NCBI RefSeq assembly: GCF_025698545.1
Contig: NC_068572.1
Coordinates: forward strand, 2,542,001 to 2,606,000
Direction of reading: 5' to 3'
Length of the DNA: 64,000 nt
Source of the DNA: Gossypium raimondii
Taxonomy: Eukaryota > Streptophyta > Magnoliopsida > Malvales > Malvaceae
Made by a program: the position numbers and the translations under genes. Positions 35,666 to 64,000 of this stretch are shown in pieces. The notes below the pieces were generated by a model. The model saw only the letters and a program-made list of their open reading frames with translations, did no database searches and was not told the DNA's origin. Within the stretch, counting starts at the first letter, position 1. Each line of letters begins with the position of its first letter.

Positions 35666-37315
35666 CTAAACGCCAGGCCATAAAATTCTATGAATCCTTT
35701 TATCTGCTTTCCTCCAAAATCGTATGTGGTCAGGCATTGTAGATTTTCCAGCATCTTGAAGCCTAACAGGACAAGATCATCTGATTGGTTGCGCTCATAT
35801 GGGACCATCAATCAAGACAATATCTAAATCCCAAAATGGAGAGGTACCCAAGTTTCGAGTAAACGTCAATCTAATTTTGCAAGTGAGCAAAGGAAAAAAC
35901 AAGTATTCGGTCGATTCCATCGTATTCGCGATGGGATTTGTCCATCACAATTTTAGGTGTCACATGCACTAACGTCCTGAAAATATGTCAAATTCTAAGA
36001 TTAAAAAAAAAACGTAATGATTTATTTTTTTAATTAAAAAATTATTTTAATTTTTCGTTTCTTTTAATTTTTAATTTTACGTTGTTTATCAAATTATTTT
36101 TAAAATATTTATTAACTTTGATAATATAACATGCACTTAAAATACCATGTGAACAAGTATTTAAATTTTTTAAATTTAATAAATATTTTATATTTTTAAT
36201 AATTCTTATATTTTTAGTAATTTTTAAAATTTTATATTTTAAAAATCAATTAATTATTAATGTGTTGACATACATGTCGCATCAACAAAACTAACAAACA
36301 TTAAATTTTCTATTCATTTTAATGTGATTTAACAAATAATAAATTTAAATGTAAAAAAAGCTAAAATAATATTTTTGTAAAATTAAAACAAAAATTAAAT
36401 AAAAAGAATATGTTCAATTTTATTTGAATCAATTTTGCTCTCCTCCATAAAACCATACATTCATGAATCAAATTTAGACTCAAATCTACTATAGTATCAA
36501 AGAAATCCCCATTTCAAAATTCAACACAAATCCTTTGGCAGCATTTAAAACTTATTACTTAAAATTAAACTATTTAAAATATACTATTCATAATATATAT
36601 TTAAATCTATAAATTTATTAAACATCTATTTAATAATAATTTTAAAATTCTTAAAATACATTTTTCTTTTTTATTTTAATATATCTTAAATCTCAACTAA
36701 TTTATCTATAATATAGATATTAAATTATTATTTATATAATAAATAAATTTCAAATTTTAAATCTATATTCAGAAAACATTTAAGCGTCAATAATATATAA
36801 GATTGATATAACTAGAGACCTGATAGGTACCGACCCCTCAATAGAAAATTTCCATTTAGACCTTTAAATTTTTAAAATTCTAAATTAATAAAAGTAAAAT
36901 TACACTTTAGTCTCCCAAAAGTGATAAAAATTTAATTTAATTCTTTAAAATTATAAAGATATATACTATTAAAATAATAAAATTACATTTCTACTATCGT
37001 AAAAATTATAATTTAATTTCTACCCTTCTTCTCCGCTGAATTTATCGAGGAGCAACGTACCTTTCAAACAATATGGTAGATTATAAAATATGTAACCTTA
37101 GCTCTCATAAAAGCTAAAATTAAGTTGCATCATTAATTATAAGTATATAGCAAGTAAAATTCTTTCCCAATAAAAGCTCCTACCACACCCAACATTATAT
37201 TTACATGCAAATTATCATTAGATACTAAATCCCACTCTCTTATTTTTATAAGAGTAATACTTAGCACTGCATATTATACATACCAAAGGGGTTTAAATGT
37301 TGAATAGTGATTACT
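35666..37315. other. intergenic, no gene recognised
   Basis: AT-rich. A moderately GC-richer stretch at 35690-35960 has no frame of note. The right end is the 3'UTR side of the aspartic protease gene. Confidence 0.5.
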
Positions 37316-41700
<4,385 letters not shown>

Positions 41701-42063
41701 TTCTAGATCCTTTTTGAGGTGTGTCTCTCAACTATCCACTCCTTTTGTTTCCCGATTTTTCTTCTTTTCTCAAGTAAGAGAGAGTTTAATTGGTGGATTT
41801 CTTGGAGAATCATGACCGTACACGTGGAGAGTGATTACAGGCTATTCATTATAGCGGTTCATTTATTTTGTTTTTTTTCCTTGTTGTGTAAGAAATGGAG
41901 AGCGTGATTGAGTACGGCTGAGTGTATGACGATTTTGGGTGAGGGAGCGATTTGATAGAACCATAATGACTGGATTGTACATATGGGCCCTTGCATACTA
42001 AATGGGATCATTTTTGTTATACGGTAAACCCATAAAAAATAGATCGAAATATGAAAAATATAT

Positions 42064-42230
42064 GCCGGTTGAGTCTTAACTCAATTGATATAGACATTGT
42101 TATCAATGTAGAAAATATGAATTCGAGTGCGTTCAAATGTATTATTATCCTATTTATGAGTTGGGAGAAATTATGTCTAATTTTAGATATTATGATAAAA
42201 AGAGCAAATATAATGAGATTGTTAAAAAAA
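42064..42230 (+). mobile_element. tRNA-derived SINE copy 4
   Basis: Starts GGTTGAGTCTTAACTCAATT (A-box-like), then GATATAGACATTGTTATCAA, B-box-like ATTCGAGTGCGTTC, CCTATTTATGAGTTGGGAGA, ATTTTAGATATTATGAT and AAATATAATGAGATTG. Ends in an A-run near 42228. Confidence 0.75.
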
Positions 42231-42339
42231 TTTGTATGAGCTGTCATAGATAAATATATTTGTTTAATTGAAAATTTTATATTTTAATTTTTTAAATAGT
42301 TGGTGATTTTTAGGATAAATAGGTAGTTTTTTTAAAAGG

Positions 42340-42923
42340 CTTAATGACAAATTTGGCCACTAATATTTACATATTTTGTCAAAATGGCTTTAATTATATT
42401 TTAATCTTTTTTGCCATCAACCTTTGTTCTTTTTGCAAATTGCATTTTCTAATAGATTTGATAGAAGTACAGTTAAAAAGTTAACGGGATGATTTGAAAT
42501 TTCATACGTGGAATATTTTTAATGAGACGTAATTTATTACTTAAATAACTCAATAAAATAATTACATGTGGAAATAATAAAGTAAATAATTCATGAAGTT
42601 AAAATTTAACTCTTAATTTTAAAACCTTTTTAGATAATTATATTTATTTTTAATTTAAGAGTTATTTTTAAAATTTCATGTATGATTTATTTATTTTATT
42701 ACTTTTCATATGTAATTATCTTATTGGGTTACTTAAGTAATAAATTACATCTCATTAAAACATTTCACATCATCCACGTTAATATTTTTAACGGTACTTT
42801 CAACAAATTTATTAAAAAAACAGTTTGAAAAAAACAAATGTTGATAGCCAAAAAAGGCTCAAAAATATAATTAAGGTCAATTTGACAAAATATGTAAACG
42901 TTAGTGGCCAAATTTGTCATTAA
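42340..42923. mobile_element. MITE with long terminal inverted repeats (~580 bp)
   Basis: Left end TTAATGACAAATTTGGCCAC with TTTACATATTTTGTCAAA. Right end, reverse-complemented, reads TTAATGACAAATTTGGCCAC with the same continuation. Pairing goes on through most of the element (e.g. ACGTAATTTATTACTTAA left, TTAAGTAATAAATTACATCT right). Flanks share TTTAAAA, which may be a target duplication. No coding capacity. Confidence 0.85.
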
Positions 42924-43790
42924 ATATTTAAAAAAAACATAAGAAATGAATGTTAGTTGAAAAGTGAATGTGATAGTTGAAAATAAACCACTTTTAATTT
43001 TTTTAATTTAATTTTTTATGAAAAAAGTAAAATATTTGAATAAATATCTTTCTAAAGTTTTCATTCTTGATTCAAAAGCTATCCAACTTAAAACACAAAT
43101 CGCTCAATTTTTCAAACTAAAACTTTGCTTTGTCAATGGTGGTATTTATTGATCACGACTTCTTCAACGTTTTTTTTTTTTGGCTTTTATTTTATTTTTA
43201 ATTTCAGTTCACATTATTATAGTTTTGTTTGTAGTTTTAAGGTATTATTTTGTCTATATTTATCGAGATTTTTGTTTTACTCACTTTGTTTTCTTTGAAA
43301 GCAATTTTTAATTTCTAGTCAAGTTTTGACATATATATATATATATGAGGTTTGTCAATCTAAAGGTGTCGCTAAATTTATTAGGAATCATTCTCAAAGA
43401 ATTTTATTATGATAGATCATAGTGATGGTGATTAATCCAATATGATGAGGAAGAAGATAGGTCATCTGAGACTTGCCATTTTATGCATCACTGATGCGAT
43501 GGGTCTCCCAAGGCTTTTGGCAATTGTTTCTTATTTGACTGTTGTTCATCATCAGGCTGATTTGATGATAGCAGGGTCATGCAAATTTCAATGATTTAAT
43601 CAAATTGATATATCTCTAGTTTGTTTTTGAATTATTCCAATGTTGCAGTTACTGTTAGTTTGTCTTTCTCTTTTTTTAGATGATTTTTCTAGGCATGACA
43701 TTTGTGCATTAGTTTGTAGTAATTTATTTATCGTTTGTATAACATGTTACGTCTTTATAGTTTTATTGTTCATAGTTCCTATTAGAGTTA
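42924..43790. other. intergenic, no gene recognised
   Basis: Includes a (TA)n run at 43331-43344 and a GC-richer patch at 43365-43620 without a convincing frame or RNA structure. Confidence 0.45.
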
Positions 43791-43794
43791 CCCA

Positions 43795-43893
43795 TAAATA
43801 GGATGATAATACGCTTCAGCGCACTCGAACTCACATCCTTCTATATTAACAACAATGTCCATATCAATTGAGTAAAGACTCAATCAATTATTT
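43795..43893 (-). mobile_element. tRNA-derived SINE copy 5 (5' part)
   Basis: Reverse complement reads GATTGAGTCTTTACTCAATT, GATATGGACATTGTTGTTAA, GTGAGTTCGAGTGCGCTGAA, GCGTATTATCATCCTATTTA. It covers the head and body, and the 3' tail is missing. Confidence 0.75.
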
Positions 43894-44665
43894 TCTATTT
43901 TTTTAAAATATTAATTAACACGTCCACAACCACATACATAATCTTGTTTAATTTTTAAATATTAAGTTTAAATTGATTACGTTAAAAATAATGATACTAT
44001 ATGATGTATGGTACTTTTCTTTAAATATGTCATGAGAATGTCAATTTTTTTAGACAACTGTATTTTCAAACTTGATTTTATTTTGCTAGTCAAAATTATT
44101 TTAATAATTTTAATTTTTTCAAACGATATATTTTAGGTGACCAACACATGCACATCTGACTAAAATATTAACTCCATAAAAAAATTTTATGATAAATAGG
44201 CAGTTTTAAAAAATTAATATGTGAGAGAAATGGATGTGATTGTTGAAAATAAATTATAATAGGTTTATTATTTAAATTTGTCTTTAAGAAAAAAAAGGTA
44301 AAATATTTAAACCAGATTTATTTTTATTTTAAGATATAAGTGGTGTCATTTTCTCATGATATCAATTCAGTTAAGAGTTTTATATATAATAAAGAAATAG
44401 ATACGATATGACATGTTTAAACACAACTTTTAATGTTCATGTTGTATCACGGTTTTAAAATTTTATACATGTGAATTTCAAGTCATGATTTATTAGTCGG
44501 GTGTTCAAATTTCCCAAAAATAATATGGGTTCGAATCACTGTTGTACCAAAACTTTGAATTCTAAATTAGTTTTTTGAGTTCCAAAATACTCCCTTAATT
44601 ATTATTTTATAATTTTAAATAAAAAGCTAATAAAATCAGTTGGTTAAATCAGTTAATAGAACCAG
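43894..44665. other. intergenic, no gene recognised
   Basis: AT-rich. A worn relative of the GTTGGTGACCC repeat (GTGGTGTCATTTTC, GATATCAATTCAGTTAAG) lies near 44340-44380. Confidence 0.4.
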
Positions 44666-44671
44666 TTGATC

Positions 44672-45208
44672 AAATTAGAGGTGCTTATAGGGCCTAAGCA
44701 TGATATTAATATAATTTATGTTTGCCCAAGCTCTGTCCGGCTAGAAATATTGGTATAAAATTTTGTCCAAACTTACTGCTCATATTTGCAAAAAGATAAC
44801 CTAAGCCCATTTTAGGCTCGCCCATATTATTTCTAAATTTATTTTTTTTAAATATTTATTTTATATTTATTTTATTATTTAATAATTTTATACATTTTTT
44901 ATTTATTGAAAATTTTTATATAGTCATCTTAACATTATTTTATTGTTTACATTAGAGTAGTATTATATATTTAGTATAGGTTTATTTTTTTAATGTGTTC
45001 TAAATTACATAATATATAAAAACAACTTAATATAAAATATTATAAATTTAAAAATGGATCGGGCTGAACTTGGGCATTGAATATTCAAGCCTGAGCTTGA
45101 CCATATTTTAAACAAGCCAAATATTTTTACCCAAATTTTCCTAAATTACAAGTGTGCCTTCAGGCCTGGGTGGATAGTCAAGCCTATGAACAGGTCTAGG
45201 TCAAACTA
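44672..45208. mobile_element. inverted-repeat element with GGGCC(T/C)AAGC words
   Basis: Left end GAGGTGCTTATAGGGCCTAA, right end reverse-complemented CCTAGACCTGTTCATAGGCTT, with internal CCTAAGCCCATTTTAGGC against GCCTGAGCTTGACC. This arrangement matches common plant MITE-like repeats with GGGC(T/C)CAAGCC themes around an AT-rich core. Ends are worn and no target duplication could be set. Confidence 0.45.
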
Positions 45209-46151
45209 ACTACTGCAATTAACAATCAACCAATTACCAAACAGGACCTTATTTAAAAGCGTTTAGCAAAATTTACATGACAACTGAAAGCTTATATATG
45301 TAAAATGACAAATAAGAGCATGACATTTTTTTTGTTAAGTATTTATTTGTTTATAATACTTTAGTCTTTATTGGGTGAAATTATTGAAATAAAATACTAT
45401 TACCAATGAATTAAAACATCCATTATGGAAATTAATTAGTGAATATTTTTGAAAATTTAAATAAACAAATTTCTTAAGTTTCTTATTTGCAAATATTAAC
45501 CTTGTGGAAATTGATAAATATTAATAATGTATCAATATAATTGAAAATTATATTCTTAGTCATAATTATGTCATGTTCTTAGTATGTAAATTAGTGATAA
45601 TTATGTCACACTCTCAGGTAGCATTTTGCGCAAGTAAATTAAAATTAAATTAAGATTACATAAATATTCAAGGATGAATGGGCTCGATTGAAAATTTCTT
45701 GCGGCAATGTTGATTTTTGTAAATTCAAGATGGATTTTTTTTTTCTTTAGATTTACTTTGGAGGTGAAAGTGAAAATGAGAGGATGAATGTTATTGATAT
45801 CTTGACATCTCTATTAGGTTTGAGAGCATGTGACAAAAGGAGTAATTTTTTTAACAAGCATGGTCAAATATGTCATTTCACATATCTCATCCCCAACTTT
45901 AGAGGTTTTAGCTCATTAAGTTCTTACAAACCTCTATCCTCCAAACCCTATAATTAGAGGGTTTGACTACACAATCTAATTTTATTTGTTCCCAATTTAG
46001 TAAAAAATAAGTCTAAAACTCTATATCCACATATTTTCTGTTTTTTTTTCTTTAAATTACTAATTAACGGCTATGGAATGTTCCACGACCACATACAGAA
46101 AATCTTGTTTTAGTTTTCTGTTGGTCATTCAAGAAAGCTGAAATGAAAAAG
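45209..46151. other. intergenic left flank of the array
   Basis: AT-rich with no recognisable gene. It ends at GAAATGAAAAAG, the unique sequence abutting the first base of unit A. Confidence 0.5.
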
Positions 46152-47072
46152 TAAAACATGAACAATTTTCCAAGATGTAGATATGAATGTTGAATCAAAC
46201 TGGTTGATTTCCAATTTCTGTAAATTAGGTGTTAAAGAAATTGATTTAGTCATTGTAATAAATATCATAAATTGCGGAGACTAAGGAAAATCCAATAAAA
46301 CTCTAAAGAAATTCAATAAAAATTTCCAAATTTTGGAAAAAGGATCTTAAAATATTATAAAATTAAAAATATATATTAGATTTTTTAATAAAACGAATTT
46401 ATCAGTTAACAATTCAAAAACAATAAAATTTCCTCTTTCTTTCTTTATTTGCAAAAATACAAAATATAAAAATTCAAAAATTCATTAAAAATTATAACAA
46501 AAGATATATATTTATTAGAAAATTTTAAAAACTATATTAATTAACAGTTCATTATCTAAAAGAGTTTTTCCTGACACTTCTCTTTTGTAAGTTTTATTAG
46601 AAAAATTCGTCTTTCTACAAATTCTTTTAGATTTTTATTGATTTATTATTTAAACAGTTAAAGTGATATTATACCATTTAAAAAATATTTCAAAAAATCT
46701 GTTCCTTAATGATTTTTAATGAATATTATTGTTTTTCATTTTAAATAAATTTATTTTTATAATTTTAATGGATTTCATGAATTTTTTTATTTTTTGTATT
46801 TTTGATGTTTTGAAAAATATTTATTTTACCTTTTTTAATGATAAGATGTCATGTTATTATTTACTGAATGTGCATGAGATCTATGCACCGATAGTGTATC
46901 AAATATTTTCTCATAAAAAAAGACAATTAGAATTCAAAAGAAAAAAAACTAAAAATAAATAAATTATAAAATAAAGAAATTTGTTTGTTTATGTTTTTTT
47001 TTTCAAAATTGTAATTATACTTAATTTAATTAAATTGGAAAAGTTATTAGATGTAAATGAGTGTATAATATG

Positions 47073-49408
47073 TGTCGAAACTGTTTTTTTGAAAACAAAA
47101 ATTTAGTTGTCGACTTTAAAAATAAAACTGGAGTCGCCACCGATCCTTTATTAAGGTGCGATCGGCCCACCTTAAAAATAATTTTGGTCTGCGAAATTTG
47201 AGAAAACATGTTCGGGAGTCAGTTACGCACGAGGAAGGATTAGCACCCTCATAACGCCCAAAATTGATACCAAATTGATTTTTTTAATGCCTTGGTGTCG
47301 AAAATTTGAAAAGATTTTAAAAGGAAACTTTTTTATTTCACGAATGGATTAAAATAATAAGACAATTCTTATTTCAAAGAAATAAAACACCACACCCAGT
47401 GAGTTAGGGCACGATGTTTTTAAATCTTCAAAATACCCGAATATTACCTTTTGTTCTTGAAAATTCTTATTTCGAGAAGTCAAAAATATCATGACCAGTA
47501 AGTTAGGACCCAACATTTTGAATCCCCGAGAATAAGCTTCATTTGAAATTTGTGAATTTATTGCAAAACAAATACTTGGCTCTCTAAATTCATCGAAAAA
47601 TAATCGCAATCCAATAAGTTAGGACACGATCTTTCACGAGAATCATGAATGCCAAATATCTTGGAATTTATAAAATAGGATGATTTAAATACTTTGAGAA
47701 AATCAAAATATATATTTTTAAAATGGATGCTAAAAAGGGTTAAGGTACAACATGGAACAAACACTTTAATTTAAAATGTAAATGTAAATTGTAAAAATAA
47801 AATAAAAGTATAAAGATATGCATATGTGTATATATTTTCGAAATAAAAATGTATAAGTATATATATGTAGGTAAACCATGAAAATATGTGCACATTTAAA
47901 TGCTTATGTATAGATGTACAATATGTATATATAAAATGATAAAAATATTTACAATGATTTTAAAGAAAAATGTGTACATAAATATATTATAGAAAATGTA
48001 TGTGTATTTTAAATGTGGGAGCGGTGAAGATAAAATAATAATAAATAAAATATGTACATGTGAATCAATAAAATAAAATATAAAATTATATATACATATA
48101 TATTTACAAAATAAAGAATGTGTAAGTATGTATAAAATATGAGCATGTGAAAGAAAAATAAAACTATAAAAAGAAATTTTAAAAATGTGCGAACGAAATG
48201 TATGCATGCATGTATGTTATACATAAAATATGCGTATGTATGAATGAAATAATAACAATAATAATGTTAATAATAATAACAATAAATAAAATAAAATAAA
48301 GGTATAGCATAATTATGATAAGACACTAAAATGGATTAAATTGAATTAAAAACGAAAAAAATGGGGTAGATTTAGAATAAATTTAAAAAGAAAGGACCCA
48401 CTTGAACGCGCGCGCGACAACGGAGGACCAAAAGGGGAATTATCCCATCCTTCCAGAACGCAGCGCAGCGGGGGACCCAATTGAAACAAAAATAAAACAT
48501 GCGGCCCAATTTCTAAAATAAGTAAAAATGATTTAATTGAAAAGCGTTGCAAAAAAGGAAGGGCCAATTGCGAAATAGACCATGTGACGTCAGAGCGCGC
48601 GGATCCTCCCCTTCGGGTCGGGTCACCGCGCGGGTATGGCCACCTGAACGGCGCCGTTTTGCTAATACAATTTAAAACAAATTTTTTTTTTAAAAAATTT
48701 CATTTGTAGCATAAAGGAAAGAAAAGAAAACAAAAAAAAAAAGAGAGCCAAAAGCTCTGCTAGGGTTTTCAACCCCTTCTCCGCGCCGCCGCCGTTCTCA
48801 ACCAACCGGCCAATTCAAATCCCGGCCATTCCAGTCCCGATTCAGGCGAAGCAAGCTCGGGTTTCAACGGCGTATCCTTGAAGGTGATATTCCCTTTTTA
48901 TTTTTTTGTTTAATATACAAAAATTCAGAAAATAAATAAAACAAACAAAAAAAAACTAAGATGAAATTCACCTCTTTTGATTTTATTTCACTGTTTTTCC
49001 TTCAATTTACAGTATTCTCTCTGTATTTTTTCGATTTTCTTGTGTATATCCCCCTTTACAGAATTCTAAATGGCCTTTTAAATAGCCGAAAATGGGAAAA
49101 AATGAAACCAAAATCTAAAGAAATCCCTTCTGTTTCTCTTTGTTGGCCGGATCTTTTGCTATTCTCTTTCGCTTGTTGCAGGTACGTGCTTGTGGGGAAG
49201 GTGCGAGATTCGCGACAGCGCGATGTGCGGGATTGACGCGCAAAGTCTGCGGAGCGAGGGCGCGAAGATTGGCGAGGCCGTTCTTCTTGTTGAACTTCTT
49301 GCTAATGACCTAGGGTTTTTTGATGGTTTCGCTTTGGGCTAGCGGGCTAGGGTTAGGTGTTGGGCCATTCTAGGTTTAGTTGGGCCCGGGCATTGTTGGG
49401 TTTGTACA
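47073..49408 (+). mobile_element. solo LTR (2336 bp) in array unit A, TSD ATATG
   Basis: Begins TGTCGAAACTG, ends GTTTGTACA, and is flanked by ATATG at 47068-47072 and 49409-49413. Unit C carries the unoccupied site at 61178-61182, which proves both boundaries. Contains ACTGGAGTCGCCACCGATCC near the start, three 'GTTAGG' internal repeats spaced 109 and 106 bp (47403, 47512, 47618), and a palindromic AACGGCGCCGTTTT near 48648. No internal retroelement genes, so an LTR-LTR recombination product. Confidence 0.92.
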
Positions 49409-51138
49409 ATATGCTTTGGATGTATTTAAAAAAATTAAGGTTGTCGCACTATTTTATTGGTGTCTAAAAATCATAGATTTTAGGATCATACTATATTATT
49501 TATTAAGCCACTAACCGAGTTGGTGTCACCCTCAACCGCGTCACCAATTCGGTCAGAAAATTACGGAAATGCCCAGTAATTAAAAAATATTATTCAAATG
49601 TATTTTACCCTTTTCATATTAACAAAAACTAATTAAAATATGCACTAATTAGATTTGTAAAATATTAAATTTATCACTCAACTAAAGCGTTATTTTAATG
49701 TATTTTATATATATTTTATTTTAATATACTCAATTTATTGTCTACATTAATTGTATAAATAGTTTCATACCATACGTTTCATTATTTATTGTATTCTAGT
49801 TTTTAACAAACATTTGTATTTTAAATATGTGGTTTACACATCATACGCATGTGAAAATTTTTAATTTTTACAGATCATTCTATGAATATTAATAATCCAC
49901 CGAACCCTTGAATCGAGGATAATATATTTTAAACTCACTTAAACCCATATTTTTAAATATTGTAATAACAACTATGTCAACTAAATTGAGAGTAAATTAT
50001 CATTTTTGTAACAAATAGGAAAAAATATTAATTTCATGATATAAATTTAATTAAATGATGTGACTTTTTTTAGAAAAATAAAATGTAGTGTTTTCAAGAC
50101 ACATGACATGGTCAATCTATCTCATTTAATTTGTGAATATGTTATTGATTAGATTGAATGAAATAATTTAATTTTTTTTCAAAGTTTTACAAATAAAATT
50201 ATAAGTATACGTTCGAGGAACCACAAATATCAAACTATAACAATATGTATTGTTCGAGGAATCACAAATTAAAATTAAATTTAAATCATTACAACACAAC
50301 GGAATAAGAACTTGTACAATCTAGACTAAAGGCAACAAACTATACTAAAACTCACATATGATGATAAAAATTAAGCATAGAACCCGAACTCAATATGATT
50401 TAACCTCGAATTAAAAACCCGAAACTCGTAATTCCCTTCATAATCCTGTCCAAAAATTTTGTTCGCGTAGTCTTTATTAAAACGGTCATAACTTAAGCTC
50501 CCAAACTTAAAATCGAGTGATTCAAAGTGCGTTTCGAAGCTAATAGATAGATCTTCGAATGCCATGAAGATATCTTAACCAAGAATCCCAACCAAAAATT
50601 CATCACAAGTATGATGATATCCCAAAATTGAGAATTGACAGCTTGAGTAAATGGAATTTAATAAATTCCCTATCATTAGGACACAAAGCATCTGCCTTCA
50701 CTAACTGAACCAAGGCCTTATTGGCACAATTCAAGTTCTTTTAATTTATAATGAGCCGAGTAAACATATTACATCTTTTAAGAAGACTATATCGAACTTT
50801 TAAATTAATATTAGATACCGTTTAATCAAATATAACACATAAAACTATTAAATCTTTTTCCAACAATGACAAAATTAATATTTTCCCCTAATTTGAAAAT
50901 TCTATCCAATATTTTTCCCCTCATTTGAAATTTTGCATGCTTCTACCAATCTTTTAACAAGACAATGTCAAGATATGGTTTAATCAAATATATCTTGTAA
51001 AATTAACAAATATTTTTCTAACAATGACAAAATTAATATTTTTCCCTAGTTAATTTGAAACATATATATGCAATACTTTTCCCCTCATTTGAAATTTTGC
51101 ATGCTTCTACCAATCTTCCTCAAAAGTCAAAGACCCTC

Positions 51139-51245
51139 ATCTATAAATACATTATGTTCTAACGTAACATTGCTTGTGAGGCAGTTTTATTATTGGTTTC
51201 TACGTAGGTTTTTTTTTTTGGTTTTAGAGAGAGGAAAGAACATTA
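51139..51245 (+). promoter_or_regulatory. core promoter and leader of the tau GST gene
   Basis: A TATA box TATAAATA at 51142-51149 stands about 100 bp before the ATG, with an AG-rich leader (GAGAGAGGAAAGAACATTA) right before it. The same block is present in unit B (60187-60290), where the TATA box reads TATGAATA. Confidence 0.7.
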
Positions 51246-52893
51246 ATGGGAAAGAGTGAGGTGAAGCTTTTAGGTGCATGGCCAAGCCCCTTTATGTTGA
51301 GGGTGAGAATTGCTCTTCACCTCAAATCTATCAACTACGAGTTCATTGAGGTAGATTTATTGGGACCCAAAAGTGAGTTGGTTCTTAAATCCAATCCTAT
51401 TTATAAGAAAATCCCAGTCCTGTTTCATGATGATAACACCATCCTTGAGTCTCAAATCATTCTTCAGTACATCGATGAAGTTTGGCCTAATGCCCATTCC
51501 ATTCTTCCTTCTGATGTCGCTCAACGAGCTGATTCTCGATTTTGGGTTGCTTATTTTGATGATAAGGTTTGTTTATGTAACATTGATGATCTTAGATGGT
51601 GTGTCTTCAATAAATTTATGCTAGGTTTGGTGGAAATTTTTTTTTCACATATTTTAAGACACGAGTTAACAATAAATTAATTTTATTTGCTCATGATTTT
51701 TTTTCAATAAAGGGGAGGAAGTTTATTATTATTATTATTATTATTATTATAAATTTACTCATATTTTTAATTTCAATTAGTTTAAATTTGTACTAATTAT
51801 TTTTATGTTATGACAAATTATTTTAATGCCTATGAAAACTTGTGGTTAACTTTTTCTGTTAATGACAATAAAAGTACCATGAAGATCTCTGTACTATCAC
51901 TTGGATTGTATTTTGCACTAAAAAAATGGGCAAACTAATCCTTATACATTAGATTAAAGAGTAAATTGAAATAATTAGACAATGACATGTAGCATGTGAC
52001 ATGCCAAGTGTTCCTCATACTGACATATACAGACCGATTTTTAACAGCATAAATGCATGAAAATTTTCATATAGAAGGATCAGTTTACTCTTTGATTTAA
52101 TAGATATGGATTAATTCGCCCATTTTTTTAGTAGAAAGTAAAATGCAATCTGACTCCTAGTACATGATCACTATGATACTTTTACCGTTAGTGACTTATC
52201 TATGGCTCTTTGATCTAATATATTTGATTGAGTTGATGTCACATATTAACCAAGTTTAACTCAATTGTAAAATTACCAAAAACCCATTTCTTATACAAAG
52301 TAACAAATATTATTTAGATAGTATTTATATCATTTTATAGTTTGATAAATCTAAATATATATATATATATATAGATGATAAAAATTATAAGATTTAAACC
52401 CAAAACATCTTAGCTTTTTCTATATCAATTTTATTGTTTTAATCACAATCATATTTAATATTTATATTAATTTTTTATAAATTTGTTACAGCTCGTCCCC
52501 GCCTTGATAATAGCATTGGCCGCTAAGTCAAAAGATACAAAAAACGCAGCAATAGCCGAACTGGAACAAGGGCTGCTGCATTTGGAAGAAGCAGCCTCGA
52601 CAAAGTTGAGCAAAGGGAAAGCTTTGTTCGGTGGGGAAAATCTTGGGTACATGGACATTGCATTGGGTCCCTTCTTGGTCTGGATTGGGATTATAGAGAA
52701 GCTTAATGGGGTCAAGCTGCTCAACGAAACCAACACCCCGTCGTTGCTTCGTTGGGCTGATAGCTTCTTTTCTCATGCAGTCGTGAAGACTGTTTTTCCT
52801 GAAGCTGAAAAGCTTATAGAATTTGCTATGAAGCTTATACCTGTCTTGAGAGCTAGGCCTGAGCTAAGGTTGCTGCTCGGAATTAGTGATTAA
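51246..52893 (+). CDS. tau-class glutathione S-transferase
   Basis: Conjugates glutathione to electrophiles; plant cytosolic detoxification and stress enzyme. Two exons, 51246-51566 and 52492-52893, give 240 aa; one intron at this site is the rule for tau GSTs. The N-terminal thioredoxin fold has LLGAWPSPFMLRVRIAL with likely catalytic Ser14, KKIPVL with cis-Pro57 and LESQIILQYIDE with Glu68/Ser69 binding the glutathione gamma-Glu. The C-terminal helical domain includes FWVAYFDDK, GENLGYMDIALGPFL and SLLRWADSFF. No signal peptide. The ~925-bp intron contains a MITE (51858-52195), a (TTA)n run (51723-51750) and a TA run near 52360. The start codon is exactly where the upstream array unit ends. 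The gene looks intact; substrate is unknown. Confidence 0.96.
51858..52195. mobile_element. MITE inside the GST intron
   Basis: About 110-bp inverted arms: left AAAAGTACCATGAAGATCTC, GATTGTATTTTGCACTA, AAAAAAATGGGCAAACTAAT; right reverse-complemented AAAAGTATCATAGTGATCAT, GATTGCATTTTACTTTCTA, AAAAAAATGGGCGAATTAAT. A diverged relative lies near 53360-53530 beyond the gene. Confidence 0.8.
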
Positions 52894-53806
52894 TCAGTGA
52901 GGATATTACCGAGTTCATAAAATTTGAAGGTTTGTAATGTTGGGTCACTGTTGTGCTTTGAATTTATAGACTAATTAATGTACTGTTTAATAAGCAAGGA
53001 TGTATTAGAGGTCCATAGTGATTATTTTTAATTGTTCTTGGTCTTTTGTATTATTTCGAGTTGAAATGTGATTCAATATTTGATACGTAATAATAAGATA
53101 AAATTATTTATATTATGATTTAGGGTATTAATTTTTTCGACTAAAAAATTGCTCTCTAATTCAACCACTAGTTTCCTTTTATCAATATAGGATAAGATGC
53201 ATTATTCATATCAAAATAATTGATATATAAGGTTTATTAGTAAGTGTTAGTGTAGTAATAAAACACGTTACGTTCATTTGAGAAGAATATAGATTCGAAC
53301 TTAGGAGATAATATTGTTGAAGTAAATAACTATGAACCCGAATATGAATAGTAATTCGAATGGTAAAAGCACTATGAAGATCTTTATATTAAGAGTTGAA
53401 TTATATTTTATCTCCACTATTAAAAAATTGGTAAATTAATTTTTGTACAAATTGTTCTTTCTATTAAAAATTTATCAATTTTACGGTTAAAATTAGTTCA
53501 TGTGCACTAGTATAAAGTACACATAGCACGCCATATATTATTTGTTTGGTTATCTTATCAATTACGCCAGTTTGAAACAGTAAAAATGAATAATTTAATA
53601 AGAAAATCAATTCACACTTTAATATAAAATATTTTTTTAAATAAAGTGATAAAACCCCAGCTGTATTTAAAAAAAAAACAGCAGCTAATTTCAAAGTATG
53701 GTATGTCCTTTGGAATAGCGTTTCTAACAAAACCTACTTTCTGCTAAATTATTGGGATTGCTTGGATTCTAAGCGAAGTCTCATTATTCGATCACTGTAC
53801 TTCACC
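52894..53806. other. 3' flank of GST and spacer
   Basis: 3'UTR probably to about 53100. 53360-53530 resembles the GST-intron MITE (AAAGCACTATGAAGATCTTT and ATTAAAAAATTGGTAAATTA). No other gene seen. Confidence 0.5.
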
Positions 53807-55365
53807 ATGGAACACCACTTCACCCAACTCGACGACGGAGCCTCCGCCGACGTCAAACCGGCGTCTAATTTCGGAGCGGCGGTTGCGACGGTGCTCCTAG
53901 CTTTGCTTTTACAAATATTTTGGCGTTGCTGTCGCTCAATTTGCCGTAATCATGTCAAGAAATACAAGTTTTCTTCTTCTTCCGCCGCCGCTAACATGGA
54001 CCGGTCGATAATCGCCGCCGTGGAGAAGATCCTTAAATACACGTTTAAAGACAAAAGACTCCTGAAAGAAGCCTTGACGCACTCTTCGTGCCGCGAAGAC
54101 ATGTCGTACGAAAGACTGGAGTTCATTGGGGACGCGGCGCTCGGCTTGGCTGTTGCTACCCATTTCTTCTGTTGGGAACCGCGACTGGACCCTGACCAGC
54201 TTACGCTGCTCCGAAAAAAAAGTGTAAGCAACGAGAGACTGGCGCTTGTGGCGGCTAGGCATGAGCTTGACCGGTTCGTCAGGAGCAAAGACACTGCTCC
54301 TCTTAACCGCAAAGTAAGCAGAAACTGTTAATTCTCCTCCAATTTTCAGTTTTTTTTTTCTATGTTTATTCACTTTTTTTTCATTAATACCTTTTATTGT
54401 TTTAAAACATAATTTAATAAAATTTGTACTCCAGAATTTGCTTTAAAGAGCATTAAACTCCTTAATATCGAATTAATCTGATTTTTCTAAAATTTATCGG
54501 ATTAATTTGATTTTAAAGAGAGAGAAAAAAAACAAGTCCAAAGGTTCTTGATAGCTTACAATAAGTTTTCTTATCCTTATATATAAAATATACGCCGTAA
54601 TGTGTTAGTATTTGTTAGGCCTATTCTCTTTATTCAATTCAATTAGATGTTAATTTAATGTAAATGAACCATAATTATGTAAACCTATTTATAATATATA
54701 ATTTAATTTAATGTAAAATTTTTAGATTTGGCAGGAAAAGACTTTTAGCTGGGCACACTTTTTCGCTCAATCAGCAAAGCGCGTCTAACTGGACGCATTT
54801 TCTTTCTCTATCCACGATTTGTTTAGAGTTTCTTTTAGCTTTTTAGGGTTAGAGTTTAGAGGTTTTTTAAAGATTTTTGTTTAGGTTTTGTAATGGTTTT
54901 TAAAATTTAGGGTTTAAGATTTATGAAATTATTATTTTAGGATTTTTTTAAATTTTTAATATTTTTATATATTCTTTAGAATTTTTTTTATGATATTTAT
55001 ATTTGGTGGAAAATATAAATTTTAGAATTGTTTTCAGCAGATGTGACAGTAAAGCGCATCCAGTTGGAAGCGTTTCTTTGTCAAATATGTTGAGATGCAT
55101 TTTCCTTCTCTCCCAAAATCAATCTAATCTGATAAATTTTGAAAAACACACCTAATCCGATAATTTTTCAAAATTTTCAGCATTTTGGGTTATTCACTCC
55201 GGTAGAGCTATATAATTTCAATTAATCAAAATGTAATACATTAAGCCCATGGTATATATATCTTATTGGCTGAAGGTTAGGGAGTACGTAAAGGCAGTTA
55301 AACAAGGAGATGATCATAAAAACTTGACAGTTCGAAGTCCAGATATTTTGGCCGATATTGTTTAA
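53807..55365 (+). pseudogene. RNase III-like gene (RTL type), broken in exon 2
   Basis: Exon 1 (53807-54313, 169 aa) ends at donor AAA|GTAAGC. Exon 2 starts after GCTGAAG at 55276 and reads VREYVKAVKQ, then SPDILADI before the repeat unit begins at 55361; the frame then meets TAA at 55363. Visible: hydrophobic segment ~22-39, then from Met64 an RNase III fold with YERLEFIGDAALGLA (101-115), the family signature bearing metal-binding Glu/Asp, and SNERLALVAA. In plant RNase III-like proteins the ADIV block is followed by an E(S/A)..A..Y.D helix with the last catalytic residues; it is absent here. Without it, cleavage is not expected. Start could also be Met at 53996, which would drop the hydrophobic segment. 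The missing part could lie beyond the window. Confidence is high for the family and the break, lower for the whole-gene fate. Confidence 0.85.
54314..55275. other. intron 1 of the RNase III-like gene
   Basis: About 960 bp between donor and acceptor. It contains a worn repeat with AAGCGCGTCTAACTGGACGC (54777-54796) and AAGCGCATCCAGTTGGAAGC (about 55053), two inverted-looking related words. No genes. Confidence 0.55.
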
Positions 55366-56612
55366 ACAGTTAAAGTGATATTATACCATTTAAAAAAATA
55401 TTTCAAAAAAATCTGTTCCTTAATGATTTTTAATGAATATTATTGTTTTTCATTTTAAATAAATTTGTTTTTATAATTTTTAATGGATTTCATGAATTTT
55501 TTATTTTTTTGTATTTTTGATGTTTTGAAAAATATTTATTTTTACATTTTTTAATGATAAGATGTCATGTTATTATTTACTTGAATGTGCATGAGACCTA
55601 TGCACCGATAGTGTATCAAATATTTTCTCATAAAATAAATAAAAGACAATTAGAATTCAAGAAGAAAAAAACTAAAAATAAATAAATTATAAAATAAAGC
55701 AAGTTGTTTGTTTATGTTTTTTTCAAAATTGTAATTATATTTAATTTAATTTAATTGGAAAAGTTATTAGATGTAAATGAGTTTATAATATTTAAAAATT
55801 AAGGTTTTCACACTATTTTATTGGTGTCTAAAAATCATAGATTTTAGGATCATACTATATTATTTATTAAGCCACTAATCGAGTTGGTGTCACCCTCAAC
55901 CAGGTCACCAATTCGGTCAGAAAATTACGGAAATGCCCAGTAATTAAAAAATATTATTCAAACATATTTTAGCCTTTTCATATTAACAAAAACCAATTAA
56001 AATATGCACTAATTAGATTTGTAAAATATTAAATTTATCACTCAACTAAAGCGTTATTTTAATGTATTCCATATTTTTTATTTTAATATATGCAATTTAT
56101 TGTCTACATTAATTGTATAATTAGTTTCATACCATACGTTTCATTATTTATTGTATGCTAGTTTTAACAAACATTTGTATTTTAAATATGTGGTTTACAC
56201 ATCATACGCATGTGATAAAATTTTTAATTTTTACAGATCATTTCTATGACTATTAATAATCCACCGAACCCTTGAAACCGAGGATAATATATTTTAAACT
56301 CACTCAAACTTATATTTTTAAATATTGTAATAACAACTATGTCAACTAAATTGAAAGTAAATTATCATTTTGTAACAAATAGGAAAAGAATATTAATTTC
56401 ATGATATAAATTTAATTAAATGATGTGATTTTTTTTGAAAAATAAAATGTAGTGTTTTCAAGACACATGACATGGTCAATCTATCTCATTTAATTTGTGA
56501 ATATGTTATTGATTAGATTGAATGAAACAATTTAATTTTTTTTTCAAAGTTTTACAAATAAAATTATAAGTATATGTTCGAGGAACCACAAATATCAAAC
56601 TATAACAATATG

Positions 56613-59272
56613 TGTCGAAACCATTTTTAAATTTAAAAAAACGGGGATCGACTTTAAAAAAAATAAAATGGGAGTCGCCACCGATCTTTTATTAAGGTGT
56701 GAACGGTTCACCATTAAAATGATTTTTGGTCTATGAATTTCGAGAAAATAGGTTCGGGAGTCGGTTACGCACGAAGAAGGGTTAGCACCCTCGTAACGCC
56801 CAAAATTGGTACCGAATTGATTGTTTAATGTCTTAGTGCTGAGGATTTGAAAAGATTTTAAAAATACGATCATTTTAATGTTCAAATTTGAATAAACCAA
56901 ATTGAATAACAAGATCACTCATTTTGAGGAAATAAATTGCTACACTCAGTGAGTTAGAGTGCAACAATTCAATCGTCAAAATTAAGTATTTTCAAATTTT
57001 GAAATGAATTTTGAAGAGGTTGTTCGGTCATTTAAGTCAAACGAGAAATCAAAATCCAGTGAGTTAGGTTTCGATTTCTCGGAGTTCTTAAACATCAAAC
57101 ATTGCCTTTATTTTAAAATTGGGATAACAGAATGTCACATCCAGTAAGTTAGGATCTGACATTTTGAAATCTTAGATGCTTAGTTTTAAAATGCTATGAT
57201 TTTAATAAAAGAAGCACATGGCTACCTAATTTATCGAGAAAAATTGGAACCCAGTAAGTTAGGGCACAATTCTCTCGAGAATCTTGGATGCCAAATGACT
57301 TAAAAACTTATGGTTAAACAATTTCAATGTTCAAATCAACTCCAATATTTTAAACAAATGAAACACAATTGGACAATAATGTGCGATATAAAGGGGATAA
57401 CACATAAACCCAATTTAATTTATATATGAAAATAAAAAAACAAACTATTAATCTATCTTACAAGGTGCATTAAACAAAAACATGGAAAATAATACATATT
57501 GGGTATATATATAAAATGAAAGATTTAATTCAAATGGTAATATACATATAAAAGCTGAAATAAATAAAATATAATGGAATAGGGCTTTAAAATACAAATT
57601 ATTAACTCAATGATGTAAAATCAATATAAAACAAAATAATTTATTATATGTCAATGATAAAATATAAAATAACAATTAAAAAACATACAAAATTATAATT
57701 AGAAGAATAAGACAAATATAAGATAACTTAAAATAATAATACCTAATAGCTTTAAAACAACAATACATAATAAAATTAAAACAATTATACATAATAGATT
57801 TAAATGAATGTACATAATGAATTTAAAATAACAAAACCAGTTCTATAATGTTAAATTTCTAATAATAATATACAATAAATTAAAATTAATAATAAATTTT
57901 AAATAACATTACGCTTTAGCATCAAACTATTATTAGAATTTAAAATGAATACATCAAGAATAATGGAACAGCAAATAATTAAATAAAGATTAAAAAAAGT
58001 ATCCAAACAAAGTAAAGGATTAAATCAAAATCAAAACAGAACTGGAAGGAGGAAAACGAAAATAAATCAGAATAGAGGGCCAAAATCGTGACGCGCGAAT
58101 AATATGAGGACCGAATGGGAAATATTCCCCTTCCCCAAAACGCAGCGTCTTTAGCATGGACCAAAGCATAATCAAGTCGAACATATGGGACCAATTTAAA
58201 AAATAAAGAAACATCAGATTTAAACTACGAAACAAATCAGAGGGACTGATGGCGCAAATATCCCCTCCAAGACCAAAACGCCTGGGTCTTACCACGCTCG
58301 GGTCGGGTCATCGGGTTATGGCCAAAAACCTTTAAACGGCATCGTTTTAGGGCCATTGAAACAGGCCCTAAACAGTGCCGTTTTCCGCACTATAAAAGAC
58401 CCCTCCTAACCCTAAAACCAGTCTGTTGACACACAGACACCAGCCCTCAACCCTCTGCGCCGCTTTAGCAACGAAAGCCTCCCCCTCGCCTATTCAATCT
58501 TGGCCTGGACGGAGGGGGATTCGGCGACGCACAGAACCAAGTAAAGTTTCTAAACCCTTTCCCCTTTTATTTTATAAGTATGCCTATGTATGATTAATAG
58601 TGAACAAAAAAAAAACAATCAGAAAGGAATTGAAAAGAGAAAAAAGAAGAACCTTTTCTTGGTATTGATTTTGTTTTTTTTTACCGTATGCGTGAGTCCC
58701 CTTACAAATGCTGAAATGGCCTTTTTATGGCCGAAAGTAACAAAAAAAATGAAAATTACAAAAAGTGTATTTTCGTTTTTCTCTTATTTTCTTTTTCTTT
58801 TTGCTGTTATTTCTCTTTTTCGTTCCTTTTTGCTGCCTCTATTGCGTTGCTCGTTTTTGTCCTTTGCAGGTGTCGTACGAAGCAGTGGACGTGTGCGTAT
58901 GGAGGAGAGAGGCGTGGAGGCTTGGTACGTGGAGGTGGCGCACGTGCGAGGGCAAATTGCTGCGGCGCTGGATGCTGCGTTGCTGCCCTAGGGTTTCTGA
59001 TTCTCTTTGGTGTTGGGTTGGGTTGAATTAGGTTTTGGGTTAGGTATCGGGCCACTGTAACTGGGCCAATCGGGTTTAGTGTTCTGGTTATAGGCTTTTG
59101 GGCCTACTTGGATTTAGGCCTGCTAATGTAAAAGAGACTAGACTGTGTTATTGGGTAATTTGGATTGGGCTATTTTGGGCCTACTATTAAAAAAAGCTGA
59201 ACATTTTATTTATTATATATATTTCTAGGTTTTAATACTTGGGCTCGAGCCGGGCAAAAATGGGCTCTTACA
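56613..59272 (+). mobile_element. solo LTR (2660 bp) in array unit B, TSD ATATG
   Basis: Begins TGTCGAAACC, ends GGGCTCTTACA, flanked by ATATG at 56608-56612 and 59273-59277. The unoccupied site is seen in unit A (50243-50247) and unit C (62008-62012). Same family as 47073-49408. Internal GTTAG repeats at 56953, 57063, 57148 and 57258. A TATA box TATAAAAG at 58391-58398, preceded by AACGGCATCGTTTTAGG and GTGCCGTTTTCC, marks the likely U3/R promoter. No internal genes. Confidence 0.92.
58391..58398 (+). promoter_or_regulatory. TATA box of the LTR promoter
   Basis: TATAAAAG in the middle of the solo LTR, downstream of GC-rich paired words and followed by CCCCTCCTAACCCTA. Position and context fit a U3 core promoter; activity is not shown. 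Confidence 0.55.
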
Positions 59273-60095
59273 ATATGTATTGTTCGAGGAATCACAAATT
59301 AAAATTAAATTTAAATCATTACAACACAACGGAATAAGAACTTGTACAATCTAGACTAAAGGCAACAAAATATACTAAAACTCACATATGATGATAAAAA
59401 TTAAGCCTAGAACCCGAACCCAATATGATTTAAACTCGAATTGAAAGCCCGAAACTCGTAATTCTATTCATAATCCAGTTCAGAAATTTTGTTCGCGTAG
59501 TCTTTACTAAAACAGTCATAACTTGAGCTCCCAAACTTAAAATCGAGTGATTCAAAGTGCGTTTCGAAGCTAATAGATAGATCTTCGAACGCCATGAAGA
59601 TATCTTAACCAAGAAATGCCTGGATCCCATCTAAAAAGTCGTCGAAAGTCTCATGATATCCCAAAATTGAGAATTGACAGCTTCAGTAAATAGAATTTAA
59701 TAAATTCCCTATCATTAGGACCCAAAGCATCTGCCTTCGCTAACTGAACCAAGGCCTTATTGGCACAACTCAAGTTCTTTTAATTTATAATGAGCCGAGT
59801 AAACATATTACGTCTTTTAAGAAGACTATATCAAACTTTTAAATTAATATTAGATATCGTTTAATCAAATATATCTCATAAAACTAACAAATCTTTTTCC
59901 AACAATGACAAAATTAATATTTTACCCTAATTTGAAATATCTATGCAATACTTTTCCCTCATTTGAAATTTTGCATGCTTCTACCAATCTTTTAACAAGA
60001 CAATATCAAGATATCGTTTAATCAAATATATCTCATAAAATTAACAAATATTTTTCCAATGATGAAAAATTAATATTTTTCCTAGTTTGAAAATA

Positions 60096-60113
60096 TATAT
60101 ATATATATATATA
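60096..60113. repeat. (TA)n tract in unit B promoter region
   Basis: TATATATATATATATATA, expanded relative to the short CATATATATGC at the same place in unit A (51061-51070). Confidence 0.85.
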
Positions 60114-62222
60114 TGCAATACTTTTCCCCTCATTTGAAATTTTGCATGCTTCTACCAATCTTCCTCAAAAGTCAAAGACCCTCATCTATGAATACATTAT
60201 GTTGTAACGTACCGTAACTTGTGAGGCAGTTCTATTATTGGTTTCTACGTTTTTTTTTTTTTTGTTTTAGAGAGAGGAAAGAACATTAATGTAAAACATG
60301 ATCAATTTTCCAAGATGTAGATATGAATGTTGAGTCAAACTGGTTGATTTCCAATTTCTGTAAATTAGGTGTTAAAGAAATTGATTTAGTCATTGTAATA
60401 AATATCATAAATTGCGGAGACTAAGGAAAATCCAATAAAACTCTGAAGAAATTCAATAAAATTTCCAAATTTTGGAAAAAGGATCTTAAAATATTATAAA
60501 AATTAAAAATATATATTAGATTTTTTAATAAAACGAGTTTATCAGTTAACAATTCAAAAACAATAAAATTTCCTCTTTCTTTCTTTCTTTTTTTGCAAAA
60601 TATAAAAATATAAAAACTCAAAAATTCATTAAAAATTATAACAAAAGATATATATTTATTAGAAAATTAAAAAAATATTAATTAACAGTTCATTATATAA
60701 AAGAGTTTTTTTCTGACACTTCTCTTTTGTAAGTTTTATTAGAAAATTCGTCTTTCTACAAATTCTTTTAAAGTGATATTATACCATTTAAAAAACATTT
60801 CAAAAAATCTTTTCCTTAATGACTTTTGATGAATATTATTGTTTTCATTTTAAATAAATTTGTTTTATAATTTTAATGGATTTCATGAATTTTTTATTTT
60901 TGTATTTTTTGATGTTTTGAAAAATATTTATTTTACCTTTTTTAATGATAAGATGTCATGTTATTATTTACCGAATGTGCATGAGACTTATGCACCGATA
61001 GTGTATCAAATATTTTCCCATAAAATAAATAAAAGACAATTAGAATTCAAAAGAAAAAAACTAAAAATAAATAAATTATAAAATAAAGAAAATTGTTTGT
61101 TTATGTTTTTTTTCAAAATTGTAATTATACTTAATTTAATTAAATTAGAAAAGTTATTAGATGTAAATGAGTGTATAATATGCTTTGGATGTATTTAAAA
61201 ATTAAGGTTGTCACACTATTTTATTGGTGTCTAAAAATCATAGATTTTAGGATCATACTATATTATTTATTAAGCCACTAACCGAGTTGGTGTCACCCTC
61301 AAACGGGTCACCAATTCGGTCAAAAAATTACGGAAATGCCCAGTAATTAAAAAAAATATTATTCAAACGTATTTTAGCCTTTTCATATTAACAAAAACCA
61401 ATTAAAATATGCACTAATTAGATTTGTAAAATATTAAATTTATCACTCAACTAAAACTTTATTTTAATTTGTTTCATATTTTTATTTTAATATACGCAAT
61501 TTATTGTCTACATTAATTGTATAATTAGTTTCACACCATACATTTCATTATTTATTGTATATTACTTTTTAACAAGCATTTGTGTTTTAAATATGTGGTT
61601 TACATGCATACGCATGTGATAAAATTTTAATTTTTACGAATTTCTATGACTATTAATAATCCACCGAACCCTTAAAACAAAGGATAATATATTTTAAACT
61701 CACTCAAACCCATATTTTTTAAATATTGTAATAACAACTATGTCAACTAAATTGAAAGTAAATTATCATTTTGTAGCAAATAGGAAAAATATTAATTTCA
61801 TGATATAAATTTAATTAAATGATGTGACTTTTTTTTTAGAAAAATAAAATGTAGTGTTTTCTAGACACATGACATGGTCAATCTATCTCATTTAATTTGT
61901 GAATATGTTATTGATTAGATTGAATGCAACAATTCAAAATTTTTTAAAGTGTTACAAGTAAAATGATAAGTATACATTCGAGGAACCACAAATATCAAAC
62001 TATAACAATATGTATTGTTCGAGGAATCACAAATTAAAATTAAATTTAAATCATTACAACACAACGGAATAAGAACTTGTACAATCTAGACTAAAGGCAA
62101 CAAACTATACTAAAACTCACATATGATGATAAAAATTAAGCGTAGAACCTGAACCCAATATGATTTAAACTCGAATTAAAAGCCCGAAACTCGTAATTCC
62201 CTTCATAATCCCGTTTAGAAAT

Positions 62223-63703
62223 TGATACGACCCCGCCCCGGGAACGCTCTTGGACTAGCTCCCAAAGTGTTGCTCACAATCCATTGCGAGTTGAAGTAGT
62301 TCGATCCCAGCTGGTTGAGCTTAATTTAGCTCAAATCTTAGCTCAATGAGCTCGAACCAGCTCATTTTCAGTTCATTTTTAATTTATGTTTTTATATAGA
62401 TGCTGGAATAAAATTAAGTGCGTTGGTTTAATTAGTTATTCAGTTTAAATAATTAATTTGTCATAATCTAGACATAATAATTAAATTAAGTGTTTAATTA
62501 TGCTTTTAATTAATTATGAGTGTTTTAAATATGTGCTAAGCTATTACAAAGAATTAATATGTTTTGTCGAATTTAATGTGCAGAATTTTAATGTTATTTG
62601 CTGCCAAATTTATTGTGTCTAAAATGCATTTGATTAGTTTGCTGCAGGTACACTACACTTGGACGTTTTAGGTGCATGAATGGAATTAAAAGAAGATACA
62701 TGCAAGGGACGACAGATGCATGTTTGGGGAATTAAAGTTAGCTGCTGTTTGAAGTCTTTTAGGTGACCATTCAGTCAAGGGAGCTGTTGTTTGAAGTCTT
62801 TTAGGTGACCATTCAGCCAAGGGAGCTGCTGTTTCATGCTTCCAAGATGTCCATTCGGCTGAACTTATTTCATTCACATTGCTGGACATATTTTCACATG
62901 TATTGGCTGTTCATTTTCAAGCTTTCACACCTTAAAGGACTGCTCAGTATCTCCTTAATTACTGGTCACTTTTCAGCAATAGTTGCAACTTAAATAAGCT
63001 CCTTTATGCACATCAACCGAATCTATCTGCTGCCATGCATTTTCCAAGCTTCCAAGTATATTGGTTATTCTAGAAGCTGACCATTGGAGCTCCCTATTCA
63101 GCTGAACCTTACCAGCAAAATTAAATGAATTTTTAAGAAAAACATTTGACTATTCAGCTAGCTTAGTCCTTGCTTATAAATAGTTGAAAATTTCATTTTA
63201 TAAAGGACTTTTAAACCTTAATGAATTGCTGTCAATTTGTGGAGAGATTTCTTCTCTTAAATTTCGTCCAAAAACTTTATTGACTTATCTAACTAGTTAG
63301 TGACGTCAACCCATTTTTGTTCAACCGAACTTATCACGATTTCGGTGGTGTTCATCCTAAATTATACCAAGGTTCCTATCTATTATAGATAGTGGGTCGA
63401 GGTTTCCCTATCCATCTCATAAACAACTTTAGAACCTATAAGTTTCAGGTCAACCTTCAATTGAAGTGTTGGTTCACTCTTGTTCTTAAGTTACCATTTT
63501 AATTCTAATTACCGAGTTTTCTTTTATTTTACAACCAAGCCTCAATAATTCGATTAGCCATCTTATTCTTAAGCCTATCCTTGACACCCTTAAACCACAT
63601 TTAGCCTAACATCCGACTTCATTCCATCTCAAATGATTCTTTTTTGTTTTAACGATTGGGCAACTATACGACTCGGATTAATCAACGAGGCCGGGGCGTA
63701 TCA
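62223..63703 (+). mobile_element. solo LTR of a second family (1481 bp) in unit C, TSD GAAAT
   Basis: Begins TGATACGACCCCGCCCCGG and ends GCCGGGGCGTATCA, so the tips are inverted (TGATACG / CGTATCA). Flanked by GAAAT at 62218-62222 and 63704-63708. Unit B shows the unoccupied site at 59483-59487. Unrelated in sequence to the two TGTCGAAAC LTRs. No coding region. A three-copy 42-bp tandem repeat lies inside. Confidence 0.92.
62741..62866. repeat. three-copy 42-bp tandem repeat in the second-family LTR
   Basis: GCTGCTGTTTGAAGTCTTTT, GTGACCATTCAG... repeats at 62741 and 62783, and in diverged form at 62825 (GCTGCTGTTTCATGCTTCCA). Because 42 is a multiple of three, the minus-strand frame shows a repeated 14-residue word, which is not evidence for a protein. 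Confidence 0.85.
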
Positions 63704-64000
63704 GAAATTTTGTTCGCATAGTCTTTACTAAAACGGTCATAACTTGAGCTCCCAAACTTAAAATCGAGTGATTCAAAGTGCGTTTCGAAGCTAATAGATA
63801 GATCTTCGAACGCCATGAAGATATCTTAACCAAGAAATGCTTGGATCCCATCCAAAAAGTCGTTGCAAGTCTCATGATATCCCAAAATTGAGAATTGACA
63901 GCTTCAGTAAATGGAATTTAATAAATTCCCTATCATTAGGACCCAAAGCATCTGCCTTCGCTAACTGAACCAAGGCCTTATTGGCACAACTCAAGTTCTT

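Follow-up and report, generated by a model that had tools for sequence, protein, structure and literature searches.

A truncated RNase III-like copy at a repeat junction in a tandem GST cluster of Gossypium raimondii, with an unbroken paralogue nearby

Introduction

Active RNase III enzymes carry four acidic catalytic residues (positions as in bacterial RNase III), and truncated tandem duplicates are part of the birth-and-death evolution of clustered genes. According to PMC4687873, Arabidopsis RTL1 combines a single RNase III domain with a single dsRNA-binding domain (dsRBD), Glu89 and Asp96 being part of its catalytic site, and acts as a virus-induced general suppressor of siRNA. The GST family of two cottons is the subject of PMC4751282. 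No report on RNASE THREE-LIKE genes of Gossypium, or on tandem duplication of RNase III-like or dicer-like genes there, was found in our literature search, which covered a limited collection. Here we describe a locus of Gossypium raimondii in which an RNase III-like copy, designated c1, ends at a junction with a repeat, and we compare it with two further copies on the same chromosome, designated c2 and c3.

Materials and Methods

The window, that is, the whole stretch of 64,000 nucleotides analysed here, corresponds to C8:2542001-2606000 of an assembly of 750.8 Mb in 281 contigs. Flanks of 30 kb on the left and 60 kb on the right were added, and coordinates above 64000 continue the window numbering rightwards. 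The layout of the array was obtained from a self-comparison of these 154 kb and from inspection of the joins.

Results and Discussion

Both further copies lie to the right of c1, with c2 starting 21.4 kb away and c3 32.2 kb away. The four exons of c2 (75229-75717, 76534-76680, 76851-76984 and 77290 on; limits read from the sequence rather than from transcripts) form an unbroken 314-codon frame with RNase III and dsRBD parts. The RNase III domain matched Pfam PF00636 (Ribonuclease_3) at 82.8 bits against a cut-off of 27 (3.3e-23), while the C-terminal dsRBD-type match, to PF14709 (DND1_DSRM), was barely above its cut-off (26.2 versus 25.7 bits; 1e-5), and the DCL1 (PDB) stretch aligned to this dsRBD scored 6.9 bits with an i-Evalue of 41, which gives no support by itself. 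These were the only families matched within the 314-aa frame, and c2, with a single RNase III domain, a single C-terminal dsRBD and neither a Dicer helicase nor a PAZ match in the frame, resembles the RTL1 type described in PMC4687873; it differs from RTL1 in having an N-terminal hydrophobic stretch and in the weakness of its dsRBD match. By domain content, c2 can be placed among the RTL-type plant RNase III proteins. In contrast to this type, c1 is without a dsRBD and without one catalytic residue.

The first exon of c1 (RNase III-like, RTL-type; 53807-54313, plus strand) is an open frame that runs from an ATG at 53807 to a GTAAGC donor at 54314, and encodes an N-terminal hydrophobic stretch and the initial half of the RNase III domain, which includes the ERLEFIGDAAL motif. 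It is followed by intron 1 (54314-55275, plus strand; 90.7% identity to c2 and 94.7% to c3) and by a truncated exon 2 (55276-55365, plus strand), which encodes VREYVKAVKQ...LADIV before a TAA, is derived from the gene up to 55361 and consists of repeat in the remainder. The initial annotation had placed exon 2 in frame with exon 1, with the frame closing at TAA 55363-55365, and this was confirmed, as the two exons read through as one frame of 198 codons ending in ...RSPDILADIV. The spliced 198-aa product matched Pfam Ribonuclease_3 (1.2e-15), and no dsRBD match was found in it among the Pfam models. The region 5' of c1 (53000-53806, plus strand) directly follows the GST gene of unit A and is collinear with the upstream region of c2 (74441 on). 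In exon 1, in intron 1 and in what is left of exon 2, c1 was 90.7-96.5% identical to c2 and c3; together with the repeat identity between units A and B (95.8% and 96.6%, see below), this shows that the match is not due to chance. As a separate observation, the hydrophobic stretch near the N-terminus of the c1 protein reads AAVATVLLALLLQIFW (53876-53923), and the same stretch was seen by eye in c2; it is possibly a membrane anchor.

The similarity of c1 to both paralogues stopped at 55361, and the similarity to the GST-upstream repeat took over directly after it, position 55362 being equivalent to 46650 in unit A. At this junction (55361-55362, unstranded) the two sequences share, by eye, a single base, T at 55361. 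The proposal that an RNase III-like gene is cut at an array junction was therefore borne out by direct observation, since c1 matches its paralogues to 55361 and the repeat thereafter, and the switch, previously put at 55360/55361, had been located to within one base. A 42-bp sequence spanning the junction occurred once in the 750.8-Mb assembly (at most 2 mismatches allowed), and the reversed pattern, used as a control for this search, gave 0 matches. Tandem arrays with similar units are typical sites of misassembly, and the present locus is such an array, so the junction could have been made by an assembly misjoin of paralogous tandem copies. We consider this improbable, as C8:2512001-2666000 is free of N bases throughout, the units differ by ~3-7% and each carries its own insertion. 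Moreover, the joined sequences share one base only, and homology-driven misjoining would not be expected there.

At the position equivalent to the junction, c2 reads LADIVEALAGAVYLD and then continues with exons 3 and 4. Alignment with DCL1 of PDB identified the LADIVEALAGAVYLD block as the one containing the second acidic pair, which we take, from bacterial RNase III, to be a catalytic Asp and Glu. In c1, the ERLEFIGD motif and the Asp of this pair are retained, and the frame then ends as LADIV and a stop, such that the Glu of DIVEAL is lost and the set of four acidic residues of an active RNase III is incomplete. The expectation that the lost part holds the remaining catalytic residues thus proved correct for the second catalytic Glu (Glu193 of c2), and beyond this residue the remainder of the RNase III domain is missing from c1 as well, as is the dsRBD. 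The residues corresponding to Glu89 and Asp96 of RTL1, taken from the spacing of the motif to be Glu96 and Asp103 of c2, have both been kept in c1. With the last part of the domain gone, the fold of c1 is probably destabilised.

Whether the missing end survives elsewhere was addressed by an assembly-wide DNA search with the 853-bp 3' half taken from c2, which gave at least 48 matches (40 of 390 candidates scored). Two of the matches scored, c2 and c3, covered the 3' half in full, and the other 46 were pieces of ~40-140 bp. In c2 and in c3 the 3' half is still attached to its own 5' half; it was not found at c1, and no orphan 3' half was present among the matches scored in the whole assembly (40 of 390 candidates). 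The initial annotation had advised looking for the rest of the domain to the right of the window, and such 3' halves are indeed there, in c2 and c3. The suggestion that the end of the gene had been relocated did not hold, given that the full 3' half was seen only in these two copies, each with its own 5' half, among the candidates scored, although a remote fragment may have escaped this search. A DNA search with c1 itself gave at least 56 matches (40 of 437 candidates scored), including c1, c2 (C8:2617231 on) and c3 (C8:2627970 on), and the matches elsewhere, among those listed, all fell inside the segment of the query that is intron 1. The third copy is broken: its exon 1 contains several frameshifts, the LADIV Asp found in c1 and c2 is changed to Ala, a stop takes the place of the fifth-last codon of the c2 frame, and its similarity to c1 and c2 starts just 86-92 bp 5' of the ATG.

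A search of the same assembly with Pfam Ribonucleas_3_3, in which all 23 candidates were scored, gave matches at 13 places, c1 and c2 included; the window holds one of the 13, the truncated c1. Seen from the window, the array might therefore appear to have interrupted the only such gene of the genome, with a small-RNA/dsRNA-processing function lost or its end moved. This is extremely unlikely, because the frame of c2 is unbroken ~21 kb to the right and no orphan 3' half was among the matches scored; loss of a sole copy is ruled out by c2, provided that c2 is not itself an artefact of the assembly, and the earlier view of c1 as a dsRNA-processing gene inactivated in the sense of a gene loss had to be given up. 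As the same chromosome carries a full-length copy at a distance of ~21,000 bases, c1 most likely represents an ordinary duplicate that has died and not the loss of a function, and we infer that it is without function. For annotation, c1 should be recorded as a truncated paralogue and c2 as the gene; more generally, a gene that seems destroyed inside one window may be a spare copy, with the full gene just outside.

The array that surrounds c1 consists of three units, all on the plus strand. Unit A (46148-53011) contains the repeat R (46148-47072 and 49403-50446, with an insertion between at ~47073-49422) and a two-exon GST gene (start at 51246, stop at 52891-52893), directly followed by c1. The product of this gene matched Pfam GST_N (2.6e-17), and its C-terminal matches were below their cut-offs. 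Unit B (55361-60291) starts within R, at the equivalent of 46649, carries an insertion at ~56614-59269, and runs through the GST upstream region to the start codon of the GST gene, where it ends without any GST coding sequence. Unit C (60288-64000 and beyond the window) comprises R, an insertion at ~62224-63700 and the GST upstream region, and continues beyond the window with a GST gene from 64498 (both exons open), a Mutator-like element and c2 from 75229. When the sequence from 36000 on was compared with 55000-123999 at a threshold of E 1e-8, nothing matched within 36000-46147, and the sole match obtained begins at 46148. The gene order R-GST-RTL is common to units A and C, which means that the RNase III-like gene is part of the array unit; the idea of a repeat array invading a gene from outside was accordingly not upheld. 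The repeat R was also considered as an inserted mobile element and not favoured: in a search that gave at least 81 matches (40 of 1411 candidates scored), those reaching query bases 1-265 of 1200 were all in this locus among the matches listed. Also among the matches listed, dispersed repeats of other chromosomes were similar to inner parts of R (from base 266 onwards, mainly 495-870).

The similarity between units differed by segment. In the left part of R, identity was 386/403 (95.8%) for A-B, 386/401 (96.3%) for A-C and 384/405 (94.8%) for B-C, and the closest partner of unit B is undecided for this part. In the right part of R, unit B was closest to A (A-B 791/819, 96.6%; B-C 775/815, 95.1%), and in the GST upstream part it was closest to C (B-C 773/796, 97.1%; A-B 738/794, 92.9%). 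On these identities unit B reads as a mosaic, cut at both ends, and the pattern would be accounted for by exchange between tandem units, which leaves such traces. Apart from 55361, we observed a second junction at 60288-60291, where unit B breaks off at the GST start codon and unit C follows with its left end, so that the GST upstream region of unit B stands without a gene.

We consider it very probable that a tandem cluster of R, GST and RTL has been reshuffled, that 55361 is one such break, and that c1 is a truncated paralogue (pseudogene). Such a cluster would grow and reshuffle through unequal exchange and illegitimate recombination, and the break at 55361 would have joined the 5' half of the RNase III-like copy of unit A to the middle of the repeat of unit B. 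What remained would be a truncated paralogue that has lost the second catalytic Glu together with the last part of the RNase III domain, and the dsRBD as well, with the sister copy c2 retaining the complete gene. As to the event itself, a tandem duplication may have ended at this point, or a deletion may have occurred in a formerly longer array, two possibilities that the data do not separate. With one unbroken and two broken copies, a mosaic unit and a junction sharing little sequence, the cluster resembles other birth-and-death duplicates and has no feature that distinguishes it from them, the combination of GST and RNase III-like genes in one unit being, in our own judgement, merely an unusual pairing. 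The history of the cluster is one of ordinary birth-and-death evolution of tandem genes. If c2 works like Arabidopsis RTL1, turnover of copy number in this cluster could affect RNA silencing.

Mutator-like elements have long terminal inverted repeats and a 9-11-bp target duplication. The 8.2-kb element between the GST gene of unit C and c2 (~66250-74440) was recognised from its terminal inverted repeats of ~230 bp (66255-66487 versus 74434-74214 inverted, 86%), from a 10-11-bp target duplication, ATGTATTAGA(G), found on both sides of the element and once in unit A, and from frames matching Pfam DBD_Tnp_Mut and PMD (plant mobile domain). In all three respects it is like MULEs that carry a plant mobile domain gene. 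The empty target site is directly visible in unit A at 53000-53010, which shows that unit A represents the uninterrupted site and that R-GST-RTL is the shared order. The element did not cause c1 to be truncated; it is a bystander.

Before the junction, c1 and c2 differ with a dN of 0.042 and a dS of 0.040, from 5 synonymous and 18 non-synonymous changes that are few and unevenly spread; taken as a whole, this divergence shows no mark of constraint. In c2 numbering, codons 1-115 hold 3 non-synonymous and 1 synonymous changes, codons 164-191 hold 3 of each, and codons 116-163 (the end of exon 1, 54170-54313) hold 12 non-synonymous and 1 synonymous, too few for a claim of selection. At most of the codon 116-163 sites readable in c3, c1 and c3 share a state other than that of c2. 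Selection on c2 at these codons was considered and dropped because the paralogues did not clearly polarise the sites: of the six other paralogue rows used for comparison, L001 and L006 conflict at some sites and L008 is partial, and the minus-strand rows L003, L005 and L007, translated in an unsuitable frame, are not valid comparisons. In windows of 150 bases, 7 of 432 compared bases differed over 53750-54199, against 23/149 (15%) in the adjoining window on the left and 11/150 (7%) on the right, and all other windows ranged from 1.5% (the leftmost, 2/133) to 22% (17/76). Distances differ by segment because of exchange between units. The simplest reading of the low divergence over 53750-54199 would be a gene-conversion tract; constraint is also possible.

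Expression of c1 is possible: its frame shows no damage before the junction, and it has kept the upstream region and exon 1 as well as the splice dinucleotides on either side of intron 1. With its high similarity to c2 in the 5' part, an expressed c1 might influence the intact paralogue, either by serving as a partner without catalytic activity or by giving rise to regulatory RNA. This is very unlikely, however, with dN about equal to dS relative to c2 and a fold that is probably destabilised without the domain end. The specific version in which a transcribed c1 yields an RNase III subunit without dsRBD and second Glu, or an siRNA-yielding transcript, and so damps c2, has an even slimmer prospect; if true, the plant would have a brake on an RTL-type enzyme that had evolved locally. 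The reading of c1 as a truncated, dead paralogue is preferred.

Two minor observations concern the rest of the cluster. Downstream of c2, a fragment containing the second GST exon alone was found at 78384-79358. The insertions of units A and B have similar sequence close to the left end (217 columns, 84%), and by eye they look like LTR-type elements.
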